In this document: piece after piece, positions 3,693 to 64,000 of the stretch
Layout: every line of letters begins with the position of its first letter
Numbering within the stretch: position 1 is the stretch's first letter
Assembly (NCBI RefSeq): GCF_019703515.2
Contig: NC_059349.1
Location: 28,455,744-28,519,743, forward strand
Direction: 5' to 3'
Length of the DNA: 64,000 bases
DNA from: Myxocyprinus asiaticus
Lineage: Eukaryota; Chordata; Actinopteri; Cypriniformes; Catostomidae
Made by a program: the position numbers and the translations under genes
Notes under the pieces: generated by a model
Databases searched by the model: none
Seen by the model: only the letters and a program-made list of their open reading frames with translations
Told to the model about the DNA's origin: nothing

Positions 3693-4689
3693 GCTAATAG
3701 TAATACAATACTACAGACAATTTCACAAATAAACAATAAATGCATCCGTGGACTCTATGCAGATAATGAGGTAGATGTTGTAGAGCAAAAATGGTGTTAT
3801 ACCAGTGTTTCAGAGCTGATATTGACAAAATTGTGTATATATTGTGACATCATTATCAATGATTAACTGTTCTAACAAATAGTTGGAGTAGCCTATATTG
3901 AGAGTGTCCTTTGGCTCCATCCTGATGTCTAACAATACAGCAATGGCTAATTTCAATAGCTTTAACAGTTCAGGTACTTTGAAGCCCATGAGTGTGACAA
4001 TACAAATACAGAAAATCACTATCATTCTAATGATATATAGCACCATTTTTTCATATTATGATCTACACATTGATGAACTTCCACACTGATTTGTGCATAA
4101 GCAGACAATGCAACATTTACACCTTGTACAGGACAATATCATTTAAGAAGTAGTTCAGGCGAGTGGCAATAAACTCTATTGTTATCCATCCAATGTAATT
4201 AGCTCGAGTATGACATTAAAGTGTTTCTTTTGGAAAATTCAGAGCTGTAGACCAGGGCCACCATCAGTGAGGGGGAAACTGTTTTTCAATGGTTAAATTA
4301 TTACACTGGGTACCCCCCCCCCCCGTTCTGAATATGTGGTTACCATCCCAAAATGTAGGCTCACATTAGAATAAATTAGGCTATGAAATGAATTTCATCC
4401 TTAAATGTACATAAACAAGAAATTTTAAATTTGTTGAAGTATATATGGTTCCGCTCTTGGCATTCACCGCGTGCCTTAATTGAAATACATTAAATCAAGG
4501 TCCACTGTGAACACGTACAGCGTGAGCCAAAAGTGCCAATAAAGACTGGGCCTGATAAGAACCGTGTGCCACAGATTTAGGAAATACTTCATGACTTGAT
4601 AGCCTATGCACAACAGGCTACATGCAAAATTAATATGATTCCGCCAACAGGTGTATTTATTCAAATGGACACAAGCCTATTGAGATATT
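3693..4689. other. Intergenic stretch, nothing recognised
   Basis: AT-rich sequence with a short C-homopolymer near 4313-4324 and scattered short open frames that have no recognisable protein. No repeat boundary could be drawn with confidence. Confidence 0.5.
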
Positions 4690-25002: not shown

Positions 25003-28000
25003 ATGATGTCATTTGTGTGGTTTGACCTAGGAGAACGTAGCGGACAAAACAGCTGTTCATTCTTCCTTCTAGAGTTCTTCATGCAAATGTATTTATACCA
25101 TGGTTCCATGAGGAGTGTCAACAGCCCTCAGAATAACTGCACTCTTTTAGCCTTGAAGTTTTGTCACCTTGAAAATACTATAGATGTGTTTTATATTTAA
25201 AATGTTGTAAGGGAATCTTTCATGTGAGTGAATAAAATATGGTTTGGATCTCATCCATGCTTTGAAATATGGAAAAAATTGGCTTGTCTAGTTTTTCAAC
25301 TTTAAATATTAACAACATTCTATCAGCAATACAGTATATGCGTATACACAAAGTGATACTAAAGGCCTAATCTTGCTTTAAAGGAATAGTTTTATTGTGA
25401 GCATGTATTTCTCATTGATCCATGGACATGGTTTTTACTTGGTTGTGGTACGTTTGTTCTGCCATTGTGTATAACGGTATTCTTTATTGTCCTTAAGATG
25501 CCAAGCCGCTGCAGGCGAATAAGAATGGGAAGAAAGCAGAGGCTGTGGGAGGAACCTCATTCTTCACCTGGTTTATGGTGCTGGCTCTCCTGGGCGTCTG
25601 GACCTCTGTAGCTGTGGTGTATTTTGACCTTGTTGACTATCAAGGTGTAATTGGTGAGTCAGTCATCTACATATTGTACTTTGTTGTATATCTGCATTCT
25701 TCAGTATGGTTTTAAATGTAATGATTGATTTGTATACTCCCTTTATTTGTACTTTTAATACCGGGCCTTAATTTTGCATGCAGCCAAAGCAAAGGACTTG
25801 CGCTATAATCTTTCAGAGGTATTACAAGGTATGAAATCTAAACCAATGATTGGGATCACCATCATAAACCTCATTTCATTGACCCATCATCCTCAATTAC
25901 AAAATATGGAAGTGAAAGTGCCATTTCATTTTTAGTTCTATATTAGGTATCCTCTTTCATACTTAAATTACAATATTATAAAGTGCATAATGTCTACTAA
26001 CCAATTTAAAGTATCAGGCATTGAGATCATATCTGTTCATAAAAATAACAGGTTTAAATCTGCCATAAATTGTGTGTGAATGAGGAAACAATAACAAGCA
26101 CAATTGGTAACACTTATATGCAAGCAAATGTATAATAACCTTTAAAGTCTTTATGTAATGCTTAACGGATCAATAGTTAATGTACGTTATTTGATGAATA
26201 TATGGAAAAAAATTCATATGAGCCAAATTTTTTTTAACTGTAGAATGTAATGACAATGTCAAACATTAAATAATGGTATGTTTGTTAAACATGTCCTAAT
26301 AAATGTTATTACCAAGTGTTATCTTAAGAAAGACCAATTACTGTAATTTGAAAACATTAAGGTGATTCCTTATCTTAAATGGAAAATAAAAATTCTCATT
26401 AATTTATCCTGATGCCAACCCAGATGTGTATGACTTTCTTCAGCAGAACACAAGTGAAGTTTTTTAGAAGAAGATAGATCTCTGTATCAGGTCCTTATAA
26501 TGGAAGGGTGGGAAGGGAATAATGTACATGGGTGCCAGCACTTTGACGGTCCAAAAATCATATTTCGGCAGCATAAAAGTAATCCACACGACTCCAGTCG
26601 ATCAATTAATGTCTTCTGAAGCAAATCGAGACGTTGCTTTTCCATACCATTCCAAAAATTATAAAAAAATAGATAATTAAAACGTTTTAACTTTAAATCA
26701 GCCCTAGCATCCAGGATGCTGGTGATGTTTGACATGGCTGAACTCTCATGTAATGTTTGTTCTTCTGTTATAAATAAGCGGCACTTCCGAATTCTCGCGT
26801 GAACTCACTGATGCGGTTACGTCATGCTTCACCTCAGCTGCTGGCAGGAAGCGCTTTTTAAAAGTTAATAACATTTTAATTATCTATTTATTTGTATTAA
26901 ATAGATAATATTATATATATTTACGTTTATACAAACGTATTGATTAGCTTCAAAGACATTGATTGATCGACTGGAGTCATGTGTATTTCTTTTATGCCAA
27001 ATAAATATGACCTTTGGACTGTCAAATTGCTGGCACCCATGTACATCCATTATAAGGACCTGACAGAGCTCTATCTTCTAAAAATCTTCATTTGTGTTCT
27101 GCTGAAGAAAGACAGTCATACACATCTGGGATGACATCAGGGTAAGTGAATAATGAGAGAATTTTCATTTTTGGGTAAACTATTCATTAAAGGTACCCCA
27201 AGAAAACTACTATTTGGCATAAGAGAAATGAATGTGCTCATTGCATTTTAATTCAAGAAGATATGGCTCAATGGATTATTTACCAACTTCAGTCAAAGTG
27301 ACAACTGACTAAATCAGATTCAAATTGCTTTACTAGGAAAACTTGTATCCTATGATGCTGATGGTGATGGAGACTTTGATGTGGAAGATGCTAAAGTACT
27401 ACTAGGCAAGTGCACTGATTTTTATGAAGTTGTTGCCAGATTTTATTGTTTTGCATGACAGACTTTGGTTCACTTTTGTGCAATATCAAATTAATTCAGA
27501 CCAATGCACGTGCATGGGACTTTCATGTTTTTGTAAACATAGTTTTGTTCAAATCACACTCTATTTTGTTGAAGAAGAGATGACTGATTATCTTGCATGA
27601 GTTTGTGAATTAGATCATCTTGCTAATATTAAAATAAAAACATGACTACCTCATGTCACAAGGTGAGAAAATAAAGAGATTTATTTTCTCATTTTACAGG
27701 CCGTTTAATTGTTAAATCAAATAAGTGAGCTGTGCATTCATCCAAAATATCAATGCTCAATTGGTTTTTCCCATGTATGGCCCTTTTCTGTCATTTTCCA
27801 TTCCTCAACTTATACTTTTAAAGCATCTTTACCCTCTTTATATAGCACTGGCTCCTTATCTAGTAAACCTTGCCAACCACCTCCACCCTTTCTCTATTTT
27901 CTTGTTCTACCGCTGTTCTTTCTTTCCCTTTCTGTCTCTTTTTCCTTATTTTCCCATTTGCGTAGGGCTGACCAAAGGTGGCAGCAAAGAAAACTCAGAC

Positions 28001-31000: not shown

Positions 31001-34000
31001 CAGAATAATTCAGAATACTGGTATGTATTTGGTTCTGGGAATTTCTTTGAGTTGCAAAAGGATAATTCATGTTAATTAACTCATTGTAATGTTAAAATTA
31101 CAGTATATTTTCTAATTTCCTAATTATGCTAAGCTTGAGGGATATCCTTAGTTAAGCTGTAGTTCCTTTATTCTCAATTAACTATTCGGTTAAATACAGT
31201 TTTGGTGTTTTACTGGGAAATCAGAAATTCATATTTATTATTTTGCCATTGTTTCAGATTAGTGTCATTTGGCTTTTTTGGTTGTATTCATAAGATGATA
31301 TGTTCTCAAATGTTGCAGAAATCCCCATTAACAAATGTAGTAAACAAATGTTGCAGATGGTGATTTGGTAATGCAAGTTGTAAGGTTTTGGTTTCCGTAG
31401 TATGTCCATACGTTGTTTGGAAAGATCCTTTTCTTTCAGTGTAATTTATGTTGCGTGTTAAGGTGCATTATTTTATTTTTTTTCTTCTTTTAATCAAACA
31501 ATAGAATCATGTTGGACATGGATAAATGGACTGTATACTCTTTTCCATCATTAGAGTCGATGTATGAAGATGGGCTCATGTGAAAACAGTTTTGGCTAGC
31601 AATCACTGACTTATTTTAACATTTTCTATCTCATCTTCGCCAGATGAAAAGAAAGATGTTTCCAGGAAAAAAGGTATTTTGCACACTTGATATAAGTGCA
31701 TGGAGGAGACTAGTCCCTAGTGTGGTTTGGGATTTTAAAACTGTTTTGATAAGTGCTGGATCAACTTGTTTCTCTTTGCATGATGGAGCTGACATCAAAA
31801 TTTGAAAGCTACATAATGTTATTTTTCTGTTTAACCAAGGAGTGTTTAACAGTTAAGCTATAAAGCCCTCCTGCAGTTGTTACTTACAAACCTGCATGTG
31901 TTTAGACAAAGAACTACATGCACATGTAGGTCTTCAGTCGAAGAATTTTGATAATACTGGGGAACTTTGAACTCTTCTTAAACATATTCATCCTAAATGC
32001 ATCATCTTCCAGTGTAATTTATGGAGGATATCTCAAAATACTAATGAGGGAGCTTTACATTTTGGATCCTATTTACTCACCATTCCCCAACCGTTGCAAC
32101 TAATTGCATTGTGGTTTGAGGTGTGTGTAGTTAGTTTAGTCACAATGATGATGTCATCAAAAAAAGTTCTCACTCCCTAGAGCTTTCCCACTCCAAAGAC
32201 GTTGGATTGAAGCTAAGGGAAGCTCTGAAACAGCAGCTCACCATCATCCATGAGAGAGTGGAGGCCAGGAAGATAGCTAAAATGGCACTGGCCGAGGTGA
32301 GGAGCATCCTTGCCAAAGAGGAGGAAGAGAGGACCTTGAACCAAATAAGGGAAGAGTCGGAAACCAAGGCTTGGGAGAGAGCTGAGGCACGGCTAAAGGA
32401 GGAAGGAGAGAGAATAGAGAAAGAGGATGTGGAAAAGGCCATGGAAAGGATTAGAAAGGAGAAAGAGGAAAGGGAGAAAATGGCGGAAAGAGAATGGGCA
32501 AAAGAAGAGGTAAAGGAAAAGCCAGATATGGTAAAGAAATCTCATGATAAGCCTGTTGTTGATGAAGGTAAAAAGGTTGAGAAAGATGGAAAAGGCAAAG
32601 AGTCAAAGAAGGCTGCAGCTAAAAAGAAACAGTAAGGCATCTTAGAAGAAATGGCACACTGGTTGGTAAATCTTTTTATACCAGAGAAGGATGATTTTCT
32701 TTTGTTTAAATTGTGTTAACCTGTGGCTGAACTTGATCAAAGTCCATCATGTGTCATGGAGGCCCTTATAGGCAGGAGGCAAAGAAATACCTTTTGTCTC
32801 AATGAGAGACTGGGATAATCAACATTGCTAATCTTAATGGTTAGTTGTATAATCCTAGTGGCAGGCAGCAAAATGTTGCAGCATTTGATTGGTTGAAGCC
32901 CAAACAAGGTGCTATATGCTTATCATGTGGAAATTCTTTTATTTCTCTTAAACGTTTTTTTTTTTTTCTATTAGAAGGCAGCATCTTTGTTTATTCTTAT
33001 TAATACTAGCTATAGTGTGACGATTTCAACATTTGATAATTTTTCTGATATTGTTCATGCATAAATAAAATAAGTTGTGTTACTTTACAATGCGGGAGAA
33101 TCTTATTGTGTTGTCAATAAAGTATATGTATCCCTTGAATTGTTTTTTAGTGCTTTTGATTTTTTACCCCCAGTGTTACAGATGCACAATATTTGTTGTT
33201 ATATTATGCTTGAAAATTTGACTTTTTTCACAATATCTTTCACAATCTTTCCTCTACAAAAGATATAGCAAAAGTCCTTAATCCCTAATCACTTTTCCTC
33301 ACCTTCTTTTCCTATTGGTCTGTTTCAACTCTCAAACACATAGCTGTCTGTCTATAAAACAAAGCACAGAAAAAATATCTTGTGCGAAAGCAAACCAAAA
33401 GTCACAAGCTCTTTCATTTTGGTAATCCACTTTTGGGAGTGTAGAGATTATTCTATGAATATGATGCACTTCAAAAGGGCCATGTACTTGTTTTGTGCAA
33501 CTGTATTGTACACCTGCCTCATGTATGCACATCCACATGTGAAATCCTCAGGATTGAAAGATAAGCCTACCATTGTGACCAGTGAATCAGTTGAGGAGGC
33601 CCCTGCTGAACGTGTAGAAGAAGGTAAAGTAGAATTTTAGAGTTTTGTCACATAGACCTAGTATTACACTGTAAATTAGGGACTATGACATTTATTTTAA
33701 TGAAATGGAAGCATAGTTGTCTGCATCAATAAATTAAGACTTTTTCAAACCCTTGTATTCAGACTTGACCATTTGTAATAAAATTGTAATTATTATAATT
33801 ATTATTATTTATTTTTTTGGTTAAACCTAAAAGCATTTACAAATTACCCCTATATTCAATATTGCAGTATACACTCACTGAGCACCTGTCCACCTATTTA
33901 TTAATACAGTTATCTAATCATCCAATCGTGTGGTTGCAGTGCATAAAATTATTCAGATATGGGTCAGGAGCTTCAGTAACTGTTCACATCAACCATTAGA

Positions 34001-36168
34001 ATGGGGAAAAAATTGTATCTCAGTGATTTCGACCGTGGCATGATAGTTGGTGACAGATTGGCTGGTTTGAGTATTTCTGTACCTGCTAATCTCCTGGGAT
34101 TTTCATGCACAACAGTCTCTGTAGTTTACTCAAAATGGTGCCAAAAACTAAAAATATCCAGTAAGCATTAGTTCTGCAGACGGAAATGCCTTGTTGATGA
34201 AAGAGGCCAACGGAGAATGGCCAGACTGGTTCGAGCTGACAGAAAGGTTACAATAACTCCAATAATCCCTCTCTACAATTTTTGTGAGCAGAGCAGCATC
34301 TCAGAATGAACAACACTTCAAACCTTGAGGCAGATGGGCTACAACAGCAGAAGACCACGTCGGGCACTTTATTAGGACCATAGTGTTCCTAATAAAGTAC
34401 TCTGTGAGTGTATGCAAAACGCTAAAAAATAGGAGCTCTATCTTTTGTGCCTTGTAAAAACTTAATAATGGAGTCATGTTTGTATGAGGGGCCAATACTA
34501 AATTCCTAATATGAGCAATAATACATTTGATTGACTTGGATAAAAAATAAACTGGATTTATCTTGCAGATCATTAAACATTAACACTGTTCGTCCATAAG
34601 ACACCTGTGCTCTATATAGACACATTTGAGTAATGGGAACATGAGCAGTTTCTGCCTGTTTGATGGCAATGATAACCACCAAATTCTTGTGTAAACCTGA
34701 CATAAACGTCCGTATTGAACTGCAAGAATCAGCAAACATGTGAGCCTAATATCTAAAGCATGATTATACAAGCATCTTTTAACAATTAAATAAAGACCCT
34801 GGATCTGTAAGCACAATAATTGCTTTCCTTTTGAACAAAGACAAGTTTAATAGTCAACTAAGCATTGCCTGCCAACAAATACTTTTATCTGCGTTGGGCA
34901 TAGAGAGATATTATTAATTGAAGCATTAAATACGATTTTGCTGGTTATCTTCATTTAAACTACTTCTGTTTTTTCATCAGCTACAGAGCCTATTGTGGAG
35001 GAAGAGATCCAAGCCACTAAAGTTGAGGAAGCAGCTCAGCCACCAGCAGGTAGTGTTTGGTTCGAGTCCACCTTAGTCGAGTCCGAGTCAAGTCTGTGTC
35101 TTAAACGATCGAGTCCGAGTTGAGTCCGAGTCCAAAAGGGGCCGAGTCGGACTCAAGACCGAGTCCATAACAGGCCGAGTCAGAGTTGAATCCGTTCATG
35201 AATCTGAATTAAAATTGTAACCGTAAACTCAACCAATATTTTAAGATTATTTTAAACTTCACAACTGAAAAAACAGATTGTCAGTATAAATGTAACAAAA
35301 ACACCATATATATTTTATGTTTGGTGTCCTGCTGAACAACTTCAAAGTGGTTTCAGAATGAAAGCATATGCTTTAGGTGTTCAACACAATTCTTACTGCG
35401 TTCTGCTGACATTTAAATTATTTGTTGCTTTTTCCCCTTCACTCAAACATAGACTAAAGAAAGTGAAAGCTGCATTAGTCATTACAACCAGAGTTGTTGT
35501 TATTTATTTCTACTTCATTTTCAATTTGTCAATTGAATTTAATTTAGTTTTATTTAAAATGATCCCCATCTAAAGAAATAATAGTCTTGCTATGGTACAC
35601 GGTGTTACCGGTTATACTCTGTACCTAGGACGACACAGGTGCGAAAGTTTATACCGGTAAAATGGGTAAACATTATGAAAGAAACTTACTTAATGAAAAC
35701 AGTTCCTATATCAATAGCCAAATGAATAGAATTGCCTACATAAAGTCACCAAATGAGTTTGCGACTCATAAATAAACCTAAATGAACGCATTGAAAGCCA
35801 GATGTTCTTCATCGACATATCAAAATGACTTTGAACACGCACTTACAGAAGATGTTACTTTTAGCTGACGGCAACAACTGTGCAAGGTGGGACGCGGTTT
35901 GCCTCGTATTTTAGCGACTCACCCAAACTGAACCCGAACGTGATGCAAATTCTGAGATATTGACATGAAACACAGACACCTTCAGCGTGAGTTGGAGATG
36001 CATCCTGCTGCATACTCACATCAGGTTCAACTATTGATGAGTTGTGTGAGATAACACGGATGCTATATGACCGAAGTAGCCGGGGGGGGAGAAAACCCTT
36101 AATGGAAAAAAATAGCCTACTTGCTCCATTGATTAGTTATTTTGGGAAAGGTAGTGTTTATTATAAGG

Positions 36169-36246
<78 letters not shown>

Positions 36247-39200
36247 CAATTATAAATAAAATATTTCACTGCCCAAAATATCCTAATATTTTATTGTGCA
36301 TGGTTGAATGTTGTGAGTGGTGGACAAATGCTGTAAAAGAATGTATTTTAAGCAGCTCTTCAATGCTTTGAAAATAGTCAATCAATAATAAATAGGTGCT
36401 GTTTATCTGTTTAGAGTTACTGTCTGCTTTAGCAATAATGCTTCTTTCCCCCAGACTATTTCAAAAGTTACACAGTTAATTCATCAAGCTATTATGGACC
36501 AGTTTAAGCTGACAACACTGTGTAGACCACAAGAGACTACACATGTAGGCTTCTGTAGATACATTACACCCAAAAAGACTTAATATTTAATATTAATATT
36601 ATTTGTATGCATTTTTATTTCAATAAACCATGAGAGACATGATGTGGGTGACTTGACGCAATGAAGTTCTTGATTTTAAGTTTTAACCACTGTGGCAGGG
36701 TGAGCAAAAGACAGACACAGTGGGTGTGGCTTCAGGCCTTGGAGAGGCATTTATTGGAAACAATAATAAACGTAAAAATGTCCAAAAGGGGTAATAAAGT
36801 GTCCAAGGGGGAACAGTGTTCATAATAAAGGGGGAATCTGGCATCCTCGCGGTGAATGGGGCTCTGTGAAAGGGGCAGGGTAGTGTCCACAGGATAGCCC
36901 AGGCATGGGCTGGGTCAGTCGGCCGCTCACGCTCCCCTCCAAAGTCCACGGTGCGTGGGGCGGCGGTGTCACTGGTGGCCTATCTTCCCAGGCCCGCGGC
37001 AAGCATGAGGGGAAGGTGGCCCAGCATCTAGCCCGTCGGCAGCAACATGAGCAGTACACCCCTGGTGACTCATTACGGTGTCCGGGGGTCCGAAGAACAG
37101 GTCCGGCAGCGCGTCCACTCATCCGATCCCTCCCAGCTCTAGTCCTGGGCGTGTGAGGATGCCAGTGTGTGCACACATGGGAGATTTGAAGCCAGCTCCC
37201 CGAGAAGAGGTGCGCTCTGCGTTTTAAAGACAGCGGTGATGAAGCATTATCCCCATCAGGTGTGCTTCATTCACCGCTGACCAAACGAGGCTTATTAATT
37301 ATGCACCTCTTCTCGCTCTTCCGCCCAACTCCCGTCGTGAGCCTGGCTGAAGGGCGGCCCCAAGAGGCGGGGCGATGATGACGATCCAGATGGGCGGATC
37401 ATTCTGCCACACCATGATGTAACTGCAATGCGAGCACCGTCTTGGCTGTACAAATGCCACATGCAGTTTTACCAGTTGTCAGGTCCCATGTTGTGTGAAA
37501 CTGCCTTGTTTAGTTTCTATTACTTTTAATATATACCCGTCTTTATGTTTTCGTTGTGCCAGCCACCTCGGTAGTTGATGTTGTGTATGTGTGTGTGCGT
37601 GTGTTCGCTTAAACACAGCGAAACAACTCTGGCTACGTCTACAACTTCAGGGGATAATACAGCTGCATGCAGACAGAGATGTGTTCATTAATTTCTGGTT
37701 TCTTTTTTCATTGCATAACAAATGTCATGGACTCGGAAAAAGTCCCAAAGGCTCAAGTCCGAGTCAAGTACGAGTAAAAGTGCAGTCCATGACAAGTCCA
37801 AGTCCATTAAAATTGGACTCATGACTTGGACTTGAGTCCGAGTCCAAACTTGAGTACCCCAACTCTACCAGCAGGTATAGCTTTTGTGAGAGCTATAAAA
37901 TTACAATGTGTTGTTGCAACTTTTTGGCTTTCAGAAGTAATACTATAACAATTCTTTCAGATACTGTTTTTATGATCACATAAATTAGATTTCATTGATG
38001 GTTCTAAAAAAAAAAAAAAGTAGTATATCTAGACCTAAACAGAATCTGTGGTATCTGCGTCATTCACAAACGTCTACACATCCCCTACCCCTTACATATT
38101 TATTAAATATGATGTGGTTTATTAATATATGCTAAATTGACAATGCTTTCAGTTACCAAGAAGATTGTAGTACTCTCAACTCCATTTAACATATTTTACT
38201 TCTTTACCATCTTTTTTTTTCTCTTTGCAGAACCAGAGACTGTGGAGGAAGTGCCTGTGACAGTGGAGGAAGTGCCTGTGACAGTGGAGGAAGAGCCTGT
38301 GGCAGTGGAGGAAGAGCTTGTTGCAGCAGAAGATGAACTAGCTGAGGAAGAACCAGAGGTTGAAGAGGAGCATGAAGTTCCTGAGGAAGAACCTGAAGTT
38401 GTGGAGGAAGAGCCAGAGGTTGAGGAAGATTCCACTGCAGAGGCTCTTGAAGAGGCTATTGAGGAGACAATAGAAGAGGCTACACCAACAGAACAGATGG
38501 TTGAAGAACCAGTTGAGGAATCATTACCACTCGAGGAAGTTGTAGAGGAAGTTGTTGCAGAGGAAGTGGAGTCAGTAGAAGCAGTAGAGGAAGCTGCATT
38601 AGAGGAAGAAGCAGTAGAGGAAGCTGCATTAGAGGAAGAAGCAGTAGAGGAAGCTGTACTAGAGGAAGAAGCAGTAGAGGAAGCTGCAGCAGTAGAAGAA
38701 GCAGTAGAGGAAGCTGAAGCAGTAGAGGAATTGGCAGAAGAGGCTTCACCTGTGGAGAAAGTGGTGGAGGAGGTTGCATCAGTGGAAGAAGCAGTAGAAG
38801 AAGTAGTTGAAGAGGCTTCACCAGTGGACGAAGCTGTAGAGGAAGCTGAACCTGTAGAAGAAGTTGTAGAGGAAGCTGAACAAGTGGAAGAAGCTATAGA
38901 GGAAGCTGCACCAGTAGAAGTAGCTGTAGAGGATGCCGAACCAGTGGAAGAAGCAGTAGAGGAAGCTGAACCAGTGGAAGAAGCAGTAGAGGAAGCTGAA
39001 CCAGTGGAAGAAGCAGTAGAGGAAGCTGAACCAGTGGAAGAAGCAGTAGAGGAAGCTGAACCAGTGGAAGAAGCTGTTGAGGAAGCTGCACCAGTGGAAG
39101 AAGCTGTTGAGGAAGCTGCACCAGTGGAAGAAGCTGTTGAGGAAGCTGCACCAGTGGAAGAAGCAATAGAGGAAGCTCTGGAGGAGGCTGTACTAGTAGA

Positions 39201-42200
39201 AGAAACAGTAGAGGAGGCTGAACAAGTGGAGGAAAAAGCCGAGGAGTCAGAACCAGTGGAAGAAACACTTGAAGATACAGATGAGGAGTCAGCCCCTGTT
39301 GAAGAAACAGTAACAGAAGAGGAACTAATAGAAGCAGCTGAGGCTGTTCAGGAGCATGAGGAAGTACAAGACTCCACGGTGGAGGAACCAGAGCTTGAGG
39401 AAGAAAGTATGGAAGAAGAGGGTACGTGTTTATTAATTCACTCGGATGGAGATCATACAAAAGGAAAATATGGTCCAAAAATGGCAGCAGGAAACAATGC
39501 CTAAATTGTCTATTTCGTTCAAGTGGTGCATTAACAGTGCAATAGCAATGATGTGAATGTTAATGTTATCTGTTATACTGAACGGACACAAGAAGGCACT
39601 TAAGGCTCGGGTGTACTTTGATTTTTAGCGTACCTGAGATGCAAGGTTATTTTCGTAAACTGAAACGAAAATGAAAATTACTGATTAAAAAACATTTTCG
39701 TAAACTGAAATAAAATAAATATTTAAAAGTAAACGAAAAACTAAAACAAAACTAACAGCAGTTCCCTATCTGTCACTCACTCGACGTTGGTGTCGATGTA
39801 GTGACACTAGGGGTCACTCTTGGGAGCCCGAGACACCTCTGGTCTTTGATAAATGGCCAATGAAAATTGGCGAGTGGTATTTGCATGCCACTCCCCCGAA
39901 CATATGGGTATAAAAGGAGCTGGTATGCAACCACTCATTCAGATTTTCTCTTCGGAGCCGAACGGTCATGCTCACTGAGCTGAATGCTACTGTTCATTCA
40001 CCTCTGCTGGATCTGACGGCGCATTTCAGCGGCTTCTCCCTCCTCTGCACTGGTGCACTGCAGAGAATGCCCCTGGGCGCTTCGGCAGAAAAACTAGAGA
40101 GTATATTTTCTGAAAGAGCATTTTTCCCCTCTAAAAGAGTATATATTTCTCTAAAAGAGCGCACGTCTTTTTACGGTCACGATCACTGTCTTTCGTGTCT
40201 GGGCACTGCTCACGTGGAGACAGCGTTCGTGGATGGTCACGTTCTCATTGCGAGAATATGTCCATGGCAATGTTGCGGTCGCGGCTCGCCTTCGTAAGAA
40301 AGCGAGCCACCCCAGAGGCTCCCGCCTTGGTCCTTTTACCCACGGGTTTGAGGCCAGCGCGGCTAGCACTGGGGGCGATTTGGGGACCCCAATGGGACCG
40401 CCTCCGCCGGGTATCCCCCCGCGGACCTCCCATTCCCCAGCTCATCTGCCCCGATCGGGCTTCCGGGTGAGTCCGCCGGCTCGTCTCACGGCGAGTTCGA
40501 CCTCTTAATCGGAGCCCGCGAAAGTGATGAGCTCTCGAGCGCAGCATCGGAGAGCAGGCTCGTCCAGTCGGAAGCCTCAGCTGGGCTCCTCCCTTTGGGG
40601 TCGATCGCCCAGTCACAGGCTGACGCGGAGATGACGACATGCGAGACGGGGACAACGAAACCCGCTGCTCTGGAGCTGGTAAGCAGATCTTCGTCTTTTT
40701 GTTACCTTTTGCATTTAATTGCGCTGCATGCCCAAGTGGCTGCAGTACTCAAGAGCTCAGCAAGAGTGGTTTCCTTGTTCCCTGGGTCACATATCCGGTG
40801 TGTACGGCTGGCATCACGACCACCATCCACCACTCCATTTGGCAGGTTGGCGCTCCAGCGGTGGTCTCCCGCCCTGAGCGCCCAGCTGTGGCACAAATCC
40901 GCCCCCGATGTGACAGTCTCCACGGGTCACGAGGACAGGCCTCTTCCTCCCCCGTCCCAGGCTGTTCCGGGGGTGGTCACAAGGAGCCAGGTAAGTGCTT
41001 TGATGTCCTCGGACTCAGCACGGCCACGATGTGGTGTGGCACCTCAAGCTCCGCCCCGCCGCGAGGCCCCACCTGCCGGTACATCCGATGACGTTGTCCC
41101 TTTGGTCCCCCTTGCGCGGAACTTGGACGCATGGCTTGCACTTTCCAGTCCGTCACGAGGGCTGGTCCGGACCGTCCGACTCGGCTGCGCGATTCACTTC
41201 GCCGGGCATCCGCCCAGGTCCAGCGGTGTCCACTTCACCTTGGTGAAAGACGGAAATGCTGCTACCTTGCACGGAGATCGCTACCCTCCTACGGAAGGAC
41301 GCGATAGAACCTGTCCCTCCAGCCGAGATGAAGAAGGGGTTTTACAGCCCCTACTTCATTGTACTGAAAAAAGGCGGTGGGTTGCGGCCAATCTTGGACC
41401 TGCGAGTACTGAACCGGGCTTTACACAGACACCCGTTCAAGATGCTGACGCAAAGACGCATTCTAGCGAGTGTCCAGCATCAAGATTGGTTCACGGCGGT
41501 AGACCCGAAGGATGCGTACTTTCACGTCTCGATCCTTCCTCGACACAGACCCTTCCTGCGGTTCGCGTTCGAGGGTCAGGCGTATCAGTACAAAGTCCTC
41601 CCTTTCGGCCTGTCCCTGTCTCCTCGCGTCTTTACAAAGATCGCAGAGGCTGCCCTTGCCCCGTTAAGGGAGGTGGGCATTCGCATTCTCAACTATCTCA
41701 ACGACTGGCTAATCTTAGCTCACTCTCGAGACGTGTTATGCGCACACAGAGACCTGGTGCTCTCACACCTCAGCTGACTAGGGCTTCGGGTCAGCTGGGA
41801 AAAGAGCAAGCTCCTCCCGGTTCAGAGCATCTCTTTTCTCGGTTTGGAGTTGGACTCAGTCTCCTTGACGGCGCACCTTATGAATGAGCACGCCCAGTCG
41901 GTGCTGGCCTGTTTGAAGGCGTTCAAACAGAAAACAGCGGTTCCACTGAAACTTTTTCAGAGGCTCCTGGGGCATATGGCATCCTCGGCGGTGGCCACCC
42001 CGCTCGGGTTGATGCATATAAGGCCGCTTCAGCACTGGCTCCAGACTCGAGTCCCGAGACGGGCATGGCGCCACGGGACACACTGCGTGGCCATTACGTC
42101 GGTCTGTCACCGTCTTTTCAGCCCTTGGACCGACCTCTCGTTTTTACGAGCAGGTGTTCCCCTAGAACTGGTCTCCAGGCGGGTCGTGGTCACGGCAGAC

Positions 42201-45200
42201 GCCTCCAAAACGGGCTGGGGCGCAGGCACGCAGCCGCCGGCCTCTAGACGGGTCCGCGGCTGCGTTGGCACATCAACTGCCTCGAGTTACTGACAATTCT
42301 GCTCGCCCTGCGGAGGTTCCGGCCGTTGATCCAGGGCAAGCACGTGCTAGTTCGGACAGACAGCACGGCAGTGGTAGCATATGTCAACCGCCAAGGCGGT
42401 CTGCGCTCCCGCTGTATGTCACAACTCGCCCGCCTTCTCCTCCAACGGAGTTAGCAGCACCAAGTCGCTGCAAGCCACTCACATCCCGGGCAACCTCAAC
42501 ACTTCGGCAGACGCGCCATAACAGCAGGTTACCCTCAAGGGAGAGTGGAGACTCCACCTTCAGGTGGTCCAGCTGATTTGGAGTCAATTTTGGTCAGGCA
42601 CAGGTGCACCTGTTCGCCTCCCAAGAATCCTCCCACTGCCCGCTCTGGTACGCCCTCACCGAGGCCTTCCTCGGCATAGACGCGCTGGCACACAGCTGGT
42701 CCCCTGGCATTCGCAAATATGCATTTTCCCCCAGTGAGCCTGCTCGCACAGACCCTGTGCAAGGTCAGGGAGGACGAGGAGAAGGTCGTCCTGGTAAGCA
42801 CCCTACTGGCCCGCCCAGACGTGGTGCTCGGACCTCATGCTCCTCGTGACAGCTCCCCCCGGGCAAATTCCCCTGAGGAAGGACCTTCTTTCTCAGGGAA
42901 GGGGCACCATCCGGCACCCGCGCCCAGACCTCTGGAATCTCCATGTCTGGCCCCTGGATGGGACGCGGAAGACCTAAGCTGTCTCCCACCTGCGGTGGTA
43001 GACACGTTCACTCAGGCTAGGGCTCCCTCTACGAGGCGCCTGTATGCCTTTAAGTGGCGTCTGTTCTCTAAGTGGTGTTCTTCCCGTCAGGAAGACCCCC
43101 AGAGGTGCGCAGTCAGATCAGTGCTTTCCTTCCTGCAAGAGAGGTTGGAAGGGAGGCTGTCCCCTTCCACCTTGAAGGTGTACGTTGCTGCCATAGCAGC
43201 ACACCACGACGCAGTCGACGGTAAGTCCTTAGGGAAGCGTGATCTGATCATCAGGTTCCTAAGAGGCGCCAGGAGGCTGAATCCCTCCAGGCCGTGCCTT
43301 GTTCCCTCATCGGACCTCTGTAGTTTTTCAGGGTCTACAGAGAGCCCCCTTTGAGCCTTGCAGTCAGCCGGGCTTAAGGCACTCTCCTTGAAGACTGCGC
43401 TCACTTCCATCAAGAGGGTAGGTGACCTGCAAGCATTCTCTGTCAGCGAAACTTGCCTGGAGTTCGGTCCGGGCTATTCTCACGTGATCCTGAGACCCCC
43501 GACCGGGCTATGTGCCCAAGGTTCCCACCACTCCTTTTAGGGACCAGGTGGTGAACCTGCAAGCGCTGCCCCAGGAGGAGGCAGACCCAGCCCTGTCGTT
43601 GCTGTGTCCGGTGCGCGCTTTACGCATCTATTTGGATCGCACGCAGAGCTTTAGAATCTCTGAGCAGCTCTTTGTCTGCTTTGGTGCACAGCGGAAAGGA
43701 AGCGCTGTCTCCAAGCAGAGGATCGCCCACTGGCTCATTGACGCCATAATTATGGCATATCTCGCCCAAAACATGCCGCCCCCGGTAGGGCTACGAGCCC
43801 ATTCTACCCGTGGTATAGCGGCTTTTTGGGCCCTGGCCAGAGGTGCCTCTCTAACAGACATTTGTAGAGCAGCGGGCTGGGCAACATCCAACACCTTTGC
43901 AAGGTTCTACAACCTCCGGGTGGAACCGGTTTCGTCCCAGGTAGTGGCACGCAACACAAGCGGATAAGCCCGGGATAGCCGGCCGGGTGTATCGCTTGCA
44001 CATAGCGCCTTCCACCTCCTTTTTGAGCTGACGACGTGCGCTGTTAATTCCCAGTAGTGTTCACAAAAGTTGTTCCCTGGTTGACTTCCTCCGAGCCCTG
44101 TGGCAGTCGAGTTTTCGGAGAGACTCGCTGCCGGCCCAGTACACGCGCTAACTAAGAGCCCTGTTCTGGGGTAGGTGCTCCGCATGTGGCGGTTCCCTGT
44201 AAGGCTAACCCCGTGCGATCTATATCTTCCGCTAGTTCGTTCCCCTACTGGCAAACTGCGTCTTCCTTGGGCAGAGCCCCTCAGTCTCCATGTTGTAGTA
44301 ACTCCTCCCCCATTGGGCAGGATCTACCTTGAAGGCTCTCCACATGGTTGGAAAGACCATGTGATGTATTCTTCCATTTAAATATCCCCCCTCTCTTGGG
44401 GCGAGGTGTGGTCTCCGCGGTGTCCTCCCCTTGGAAGGGACACCCCCCGACTAGACCTGGCGGCCCAGTCAGATAATCCCCCTTCTTTTTTAGGGAGTGG
44501 AAAAAGAGAAGGGGAAAGAGGCCACGACTGCGTTAAGCCTGTCTCTATCTCTGGGTAGTCGACTTGTCCCCAAAAAGGGCCGTTCGACACTCATAACTGT
44601 GTTGGGGGAGGTTACGTGTCGACCTGGTGCGCTGGCTATGAGGCACACAGCAAGTCTGCCCACCACACACCGCCAGTTCACATAACACAGTTCAGCCTTG
44701 TGGCGTTTTGTATAGGGACCCCTAGTGTCACTACATCGACACCAACGTCGAGTGAGTGACAGACAGGGAACGTCATGGTTGCTGGTGTAACCTCCGTTCC
44801 CTGATGGAGGGAACGAGACGTTGGTCCCTCCTGCCACAACGCTGAACTACCCACTGAAATGGCCGGACCTTATATCGGCTCCTCAGCGTAAAACCTGAAT
44901 GAGTGGTTGCATACCAGCTCCTTTTATACCCGTATGTTCGGGGGAGTGGCATGCAAATACCACTCGCCAATTTTCATTGGCCTTTTATCAAAGACCAGAG
45001 GTGTCTCGGGCTCCCAAGAGTGACCCCTAGTGTCACTACATCGACACCAATGTCTCGTTCCCTCCATCAGGGAACGGAGGTTACACCAGTAACCATGACG
45101 TTATTAAAAAAACTAACTGAAATCAAATAAAAATTCTCAAAAATAAATTATCGTTTTCCTGCGGTGTGACTTCAGAGAAATTTCATCTATAAATATTTTC

Positions 45201-62506: not shown

Positions 62507-64000
62507 CAGTTGTGCTCAAAGGTTTGCATACCCTGGCAGAAACTGTGAAATTTTGGCCTTGATTTTTATTTAAGGATAATGATCATATGAAGCCATTTAT
62601 TATCACATAGTAGTTTGGCTCCTTTTTAAATCATAATGATAACAGAAATCACCCAAATGGCCCTGATCAAAAGTTTACATACACTTGAATGTTTGGCCTT
62701 GTTACAGACACACAAGGTGTGACACACACAGGTTTAAATGGCAATTAAAGGTTAATTTCCCACACCTGTGGCTTTTAAAATTGCAATTAATGTCTGTGTA
62801 TAAATAGTCAATGAGTTTGTTAGCTCTCACGTGGATGCACTGAGCCGGCTAGATACTGAGCCATGGTGAGCAGAAAAGAACTGTCAAAAGACCTGCGTAA
62901 CAAGGTAATGGAACTTTATAAAGATGGAAAAGGATATAAAAAGACATCCAAATCCTTGAAAATGTCAGTTCGGGGATCTCTTGATACCAAGCCAAGGTCA
63001 GGTAGACCAAGAAAGATTTCAGCCACAACTGCCAGAAGAATTGTTCGGGATACAAAGAAAAACCCACAGGTAACCTCAGGAGAAATACAGGCTGCTCTGG
63101 AAAAAGACGGTGTGGTTGTTTCAAGGAGCACAATACGACGATACTTGAACAAAAATGAGCTGCATGGTCGAATTGCCAGAAAGAAGCCTTTACTGCGCCA
63201 ATGCCACAAAAAAGCCCAGTTACAATATGCCCGACAACATCTTGACACGCCTCTCAGCTTCTGGCACACTGTAATTTGGAGTGACGAGACCAAAATAGAG
63301 ATTTATGGTCACAACCATAAGCGCTATGTTTGGAGAGGGGTCAACAAGGCCTATAGTGAAAAGAATACCATCCCCACTGTGAAGCATGTTGGTGGCTCAC
63401 TGATGTTTTGGGGTGTATGAGCTCTAAAGGCATGGAGAATCTTGTGAAAATTGATGGAAAGATGAATGCAGCATGTTATCAGAAAATACTTGCAGACAAT
63501 TTGCATTCTTTTGCACGAAAGCTGGACATGGGACGCACTTGGACTTTCCAGCAAGACAATGACCCTAAGCCCAAGGCCAAGTTGACCCTCCAGTGGTTAC
63601 AGCAGAAAAAGGTGAAGGTTCTGGAGTGGCCATCACAGTCACCTGACCTTAATATCGTCGAGCCACTCTGGGGAGATCTCAAATGTGCGGTTCATGCAAG
63701 ACGACCAAAGACTTTGTATGACCTGGAGGCATTTTGCCAAGACGAATGGGCAGCTATACCACCCGCAAGAATTTGGGACCTCATAGACAACTATTACAAA
63801 AGACTGCATGCTGTCATTGATGCTAAAGGGGGCAATACACAGTATTAAGAACTAAGGGTATGCAGACTTTTGAACAGGGACATTTAATTTTTTTCTTTGT
63901 TGCCATGTTTTGTTTTATGATTGTGCCATTCTGTTATAACCTACAGTTGAATATGAATCCCATAAGAAATAAAAGAAATGTATTTTGCCTGCTCACTCAT
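62507..64000 (+). mobile_element. Tc1-like transposon, nearly complete, right end outside the window
   Basis: The left terminal repeat CAGTTGTGCTCAAAGGTTTG follows a TA at 62505-62506. Transposase lies at 62863-63848. Near 63855 the inverted-repeat-like GGGTATGCAGACTTTTGAAC occurs, and AT-rich 3' DNA continues to the window edge, where the outer right repeat would be expected soon after. Confidence 0.92.
62863..63848 (+). pseudogene. Tc1-like DD34E transposase with one frameshift and a shortened DNA-binding domain
   Basis: It starts MVSRKELSKDLRNKVMELYK. The helix-turn-helix KSLKMSV jumps directly to RGSLDTKPRSGRPRKISATT, shorter than usual, so part of the paired-like domain is deleted. The catalytic D contexts are VIWSDETKIEIYG and TFQQDNDPKPKAKLT; the glutamate is in SPDLNIVEPLWGDLK. 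A one-base loss near 63413 moves the frame between MFWGV and CMSSKGMENL. The usual PKH in the second block reads PKP. Confidence 0.93.

Follow-up and report, generated by a model that had tools for sequence, protein, structure and literature searches.

What becomes of a splice donor when a transposon enters between its two bases? The question is raised by an asph gene of Myxocyprinus asiaticus, within a 64,000-nucleotide stretch of DNA (hereafter the window), in which a 2.8-kb element stands at the end of a short coding exon. The probable answer is that a hAT-like insertion rebuilt the donor and that the spliceosome most likely joins position 35049 to 38231, leaving the protein unchanged; we infer both the use of this site in RNA and the hAT class from features of the DNA.

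An asph exon end and its empty counterpart

The original assignment of the gene to asph is borne out by an exon lying farther upstream in the same orientation, part of the transmembrane exon (25518..25640, plus strand, borders approximate), whose translation matches Pfam PF05279 (Asp-B-Hydro_N, the aspartyl beta-hydroxylase N-terminal region) at E 2.2e-19. The predicted exons around the insert lie on the plus strand, are of phase 1-1 and have lengths that are all multiples of three: a preceding exon of 72 nt (33552..33623, alternative start 33561), the affected exon of 69 nt (34981..35049), and a Glu-rich exon of 1,191 nt (38231..39421) in frame with the affected one. The outer two were placed by splice sites, phase and a second gene copy (for the 72-nt exon, through its alignment over 31591-33742), and the affected exon by phase and by its identity with that copy. 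Since the second copy lacks six bases (CTACAG) at the start of this exon, it favours a start at 34987 and a length of 63 nt; the frame is maintained with either start.

A perfect 8-bp direct repeat, CCAGCAGG, occurs at 35043..35050 and at 37868..37875 (both plus strand) and brackets an element of 2,817 bp at 35051-37867. Its first copy comprises the last seven exon bases and the donor G, just as the original prediction had described the target-site duplication. An 11-bp run, ACCAGCAGGTA, is common to 35042-35052 and 37867-37877, longer than the duplication itself because the terminal bases of the element equal its flanks. In the donor now bordering the exon (GT at 35050..35051, plus strand, context CAG|GTAGTG), the G comes from the duplication and the T is the first base of the element, while the ancestral donor, CAG|GTATAG, stands at the far end of the element (37875..37876, plus strand), with its hexamer also present in the second gene copy. 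Both the borrowed T and the surviving donor had been anticipated.

The second copy was found by searching the 2.34-Gb assembly (345 contigs), in which the window was placed on contig C6. The affected exon has two matches in this genome, namely the window itself and a locus on contig C5 (L014), which by its sequence we identify as a second asph copy and take as the homoeologue of the C6 copy; an excerpt of the genome description gives Myxocyprinus 50 scaffolds in 25 homoeologous pairs (PMC8412299). L014 aligns collinearly with the window over 31591-33742, 34416-35052 and 37867-38077, and in the Glu-rich exon. Identity is 58/63 in the affected exon and, with gap columns excluded, 389/442 in the upstream and 101/124 in the downstream intron sequence; with gaps counted, BLAST gives 75% over 688 columns upstream, a figure that takes in the affected exon, and 67% over 265 columns downstream.

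At the position of the insertion, L014 carries one 11-bp stretch (4197-4207 of that locus) that aligns to both flanks of the C6 element. The exon end is present there once, as ...CAGCCACCACCAG|GTATAG and in longer context ...GCAGCTCAGCCACCACCAG|GTATAGATTTTGTG, with no element following; a comparison of the whole element with L014 returned only two matches, of 19 and 14 columns (E 0.29). An empty site with a single copy followed by TATAG had been proposed as a check, to be sought in related species, and is thus found in the same genome. Because the exon end is duplicated on C6 and single on C5, the insertion is placed on C6, where it separates G1 of the donor from T2, and this site bears out both the predicted transposon insertion and its register. 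Both duplication copies on C6 read CCAGCAGG and the corresponding L014 position reads CCACCAGG, as would be expected if the difference arose in the C6 line before the insertion, or if the C5 line changed.

The inserted element and its class

The 2,817 bp of the element (35051..37867) include an (AT)n tract at 36170..36243 and a second transposon, absent from the original prediction, nested within it at 36691..37411. The nested transposon, with ends TGTGGCAG...CTGCCACA, occurs at full length in other parts of the genome, with identities reaching 93%, and its best copies in seven other loci are 91.3-92.8% identical over 719-733 columns; its 4-bp flanks are CCAC and CCAT (3/4). Without it, the host element measures about 2.1 kb.

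The termini of the host element read TAGTG...CTCTA (full ends TAGTGTTTGG...CCCCAACTCTA). The terminal inverted repeat, TAGTGTTTGG against TAGAGTTGGG, matches at 8/10 positions; over 16 bp, 447 of 20,000 random pairs do as well. Two traits of hAT elements are present: the 8-bp target-site duplication, single at the empty site, and short repeated motifs near both ends, here GAGTC/GACTC, 15 of whose 18 occurrences lie within the terminal 200-bp stretches (10 in the first, 5 in the last). No Pfam domain was detected at E<=0.1 in any of the 12 open reading frames of at least 60 codons; the lack of a transposase domain of its own is as in any non-autonomous hAT member.

Relatives of the element were sought in several ways. 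The whole-stretch genome search, in which 40 of 5,880 candidates were scored, gave 68 matches, comprising the window (1), the nested repeat (62) and the AT tract (5). Sampling of the genome took 20 stretches of 10 kb. Among the 29 loci compared (239,148 bases; L001-L003, L011 and L012 excluded), L024 alone matched the element, in part (250 columns, 73%), and L021 had a single loose hit to the end motif, unconnected with the former. The neighbourhood of the L024 match (L035) has no recognisable element ends and one loose end-motif match, and did not lead to a further copy. A search for the terminal pattern returned no stretches in viral contigs, and the two stretches from prokaryote contigs (L001, L002) do not match the element at E<=0.001 and were taken as chance.

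Two other accounts of the insert were weighed. The direct repeat might be a product of chance or of tandem duplication and no mark of transposition, and the inverted repeats of the element are indeed weak. TAG...CTA pairs with an 8-bp flanking repeat, moreover, number 9 in the window with the insertion counted (eight others beside it), where 60 first-order simulations average 1.58, so that such a pairing, taken alone, is not a rare chance occurrence. Against this stand the clustering of GAGTC/GACTC at the two ends of the element and, above all, the junction in the second gene copy, where the exon end occurs exactly once; the C5 empty site rules out a chance repeat as the origin of the CCAGCAGG pair, and we consider this account as a whole extremely improbable. 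It is also improbable that the element is a cut-and-paste transposon of a superfamily other than hAT. The 12 domain-free reading frames would allow such an origin, as would the result that the 40 of 5,880 candidates scored include no second copy of the element body, but the 8-bp duplication and the repeats near both ends argue against it, and the TAGNG...CNCTA ends resemble the C/TAGGG...CCCTA of Ac/Ds given in an excerpt of PMC3260210. The hAT label of the original prediction is therefore likely on sequence grounds, in keeping with the duplication, the TA...TA ends and the subterminal motifs; against it stand the lack of a transposase domain and of any further full copy in these searches. We write "hAT-like" because the element's own 12 reading frames contain no Pfam transposase match.

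Splicing across the insertion

The rebuilt donor scores 1.47 and the ancestral one 0.84 by a donor weight matrix (95.4 and 93.2 percentile, respectively, of all GT in the window), and pairing with the U1 end gives computed duplex energies of -8.2 and -7.2 kcal/mol. Both matrix scores are lower than those of the adjoining exons' donors, 2.83 and 3.37. By these predictions the rebuilt site is at least as strong as the ancestral one, and neither is strong. Joining 35049 to 38231 keeps the reading frame intact in the window, and the corresponding two exons of the second copy are also in frame; translation predicts the peptide EPIVEEEIQATKVEEAAQPPA for the window and EPVVEEEIKATKVEKAAQPPP for its C5 counterpart. 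A comparison of the joined exon protein with a protein collection, using words from residues 1-60, gave none of 1,064 candidates at E<=0.001. Use of the old donor would give a computed exon of 2,894 nt with an early stop, and if no donor near the exon were used, reading would enter the element and reach a stop at codon 48 of the translated stretch. Within the element, 15 GT sites score at least as high as the new donor (9 of the 15 in the nested transposon), and its sense strand has nine poly(A)-like hexamers, so that minor transcripts may arise within the element.

In our reading, a non-autonomous hAT-like transposon entered the C6 asph copy behind the short in-frame exon, exactly at the border of G1 and T2, and duplicated CCAGCAGG. 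Because the element begins with TAG, the upstream duplication copy and the first base of the element together form the new donor CAG|GTAGTG, and the old donor now lies 2.8 kb inside the intron. Splicing most probably runs from the new donor, from 35049 to 38231, with the element as intron filler; since it would only lengthen the intron, the predicted protein is unchanged. Of the working, protein-sparing splice site in the original prediction, the register, the borrowed T and the frame across 35049/38231 are seen in the DNA, and use in RNA is presumed. Adaptation need not be invoked, since the register of the insertion and an element starting with T suffice, and survivorship would account for such an insertion being observed.

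Rather unlikely, by our estimate, is the alternative that donor recognition was disrupted, with the short exon now mostly skipped in the C6 copy and the loss of 21 to 23 residues tolerated with the help of the second copy. Such skipping would also be in frame, the exon being a multiple of three (69 or 63 nt) and of phase 1-1 with both neighbours; both donors are weaker than those of the neighbouring exons, and a second asph copy is present in the genome. The score of the new donor is nonetheless not below that of the ancestral site, of which the second copy retains the hexamer GTATAG, and this speaks for continued recognition of the exon. The insertion also admits a removal in steps, a reading that the original prediction did not include. 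Since the duplication copies AG besides G, the stretch 35050-37874 begins with GT and ends with AG (GTAGTG...CCAGCAG|GTATAG; candidate acceptor AG at 37873..37874, plus strand), and its excision would regenerate CAG|GTATAG. This arrangement matches that of a [D1,2] stwintron, defined in excerpted text of PMC12403724 by an inner intron that separates donor base 1 from donor base 2; here an inner GT...AG unit, its register supported by the C5 empty site, lies within an outer donor G^TATAG. The unit might thus be excised first and the restored donor then joined to 38231, either as a [D1,2] stwintron or through a recursive zero-length exon, ratchet points being described in passages of PMC8605326 as juxtaposed AG|GT. 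Although the letters fit this geometry exactly, we regard stepwise removal as very unlikely: the acceptor has a mediocre context (65% pyrimidine, with a rival AG only 3 nt before it), and the sole yUnAy match in the last 60 nt sits 53 nt away. Recursive splicing in Drosophila is moreover reported, in the same passages, to require ratchet points with a cryptic exon (PMC8605326), and none of the 18 GT sites in 37876-38224 scores >=0 (best -0.82); the stepwise route and the twin-intron reading are both rated lower because there is no fair downstream donor for such an exon. As the direct and stepwise routes give an identical mRNA, only intermediates can separate them.

Less probable still, and highly speculative, is the stronger claim that a vertebrate DNA transposon made a genuine [D1,2] twin intron in a single step, which would be spliced as an inner intron with the old donor regenerated and used, and that hAT elements of the TAGNG type would keep supplying vertebrate genomes with such units and with ratchet points. 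Were the C6 case spliced as a stwintron, its origin would differ from that of the 288 surveyed fungal stwintrons, which in the excerpted text of PMC12403724 are without target duplications.

Comparison with known systems

That transposon ends and target duplications can be sources of splice signals is already known from Introners (PMC9860276), the AGGT model (PMC3443670) and Ds elements in plants (PMC5432752). What sets the asph case apart is its target: the element entered an existing vertebrate donor between G and T, and the same genome preserves the empty site. Among the literature matches listed, none described a vertebrate donor interrupted in this way, and their partial coverage makes this weak evidence of absence. 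The locus offers a base-level case in which a transposon end replaces half of an existing donor, the predicted protein stays the same and the empty-site control lies in the same genome. It suggests a rule, which can be checked in any genome: elements starting with TAG should survive more often when inserted directly after a donor G than one base to either side.

The supply of splice donors by Ac/Ds elements in plants was reportedly the subject of work by Giroux in 1994. Excerpts on these hAT elements (PMC5432752, PMC3260210) describe 8-bp duplications and donors near the element start, like the asph case, with ends given as C/TAGGGATGAAA...TTTCATCCCTA (PMC3260210). The Ds1 donors, however, are reported there at 12, 22 and 33 bp from the terminus, whereas the T of the asph donor is base 1 of the element.

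In Introners (Gozashti et al. 2022, PMC9860276, as excerpted), a transposon end and a target duplication likewise supply splice sites jointly, and mRNA length is unchanged in most families. These are, however, new introns present in many copies, whereas the asph case is one element at an existing donor. The AGGT insertion model, as outlined in part of a review (PMC3443670), also has a duplicated AGGT provide the donor at one border of the insert and the acceptor at the opposite border, as here; it differs in that in asph the duplication contributes AGG while the T belongs to the element, and in that the target was already a donor.

In geometry the asph unit resembles fungal stwintrons. The [D1,2] stwintrons of PMC12403724, in the text excerpted, have sequence between G1 and T2 that runs from GT to AG and whose removal restores the donor, like the asph unit; the 288 cases lack a target duplication and their two-step excision was examined with RNA data, whereas the asph unit has a plain duplication and is a candidate seen in DNA. 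In the [D] stwintrons of Lipomyces, a duplicated donor element flanks a new inner intron, as in asph, but the passages of PMC7138796 propose a tandem duplication of 4-7 nt with later mutations in an extant intron, in place of the one-step transposon insertion seen here. For the fungal [D1,2] class, the proposed origin is the ligation of intron RNA at breaks (PMC12403724, in part). Set beside these proposals (PMC12403724, PMC7138796), the asph insertion shows a one-step DNA route to the twin-intron geometry.

Repeats within the host element

The nested transposon at 36691-37411, which has TGTGGCRG-type inverted ends and lies inside the hAT-like non-autonomous host element (35051-37867), accounted for 62 of the 68 rows among the matches listed in the genome search, where the whole element stretch served as query and 40 of 5,880 candidates were scored. 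A perfect 4-bp repeat, judged by eye, flanks four of seven fetched copies of this nested transposon, one of these four within an AT run. The 35587-35827 part of the host element is similar to a stretch of contig C11 (73% over 250 columns) in which no element ends were recognised, and the two may perhaps have an older repeat in common.

Differences between the two asph copies

The exon at whose donor the host element is inserted (34981-35049) starts with six bases, CTACAG (34981-34986), that are extra in comparison with the second asph copy of this genome; they produce a tandem CAG...CAG acceptor, with the frame kept whichever is chosen. The following exon (38231-39421) is Glu-rich, with repeated VEEAVEEAEP-like units, and its counterpart in the second copy is shorter, with a different repeat pattern. 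Because an intronic stretch of the second copy (locus L014, 4460-5952) does not align to the window at the corresponding place, the two introns seem, from sequence comparison, to have gained different insertions.

Other candidate mobile elements

Translations inspected by eye revealed candidate reverse-transcriptase-like and recombinase-like ORFs in a long insert (39760-45100) within the intron after the Glu-rich exon, and candidate Tc1/mariner transposase-like ORFs in two frames at 62860-63848.
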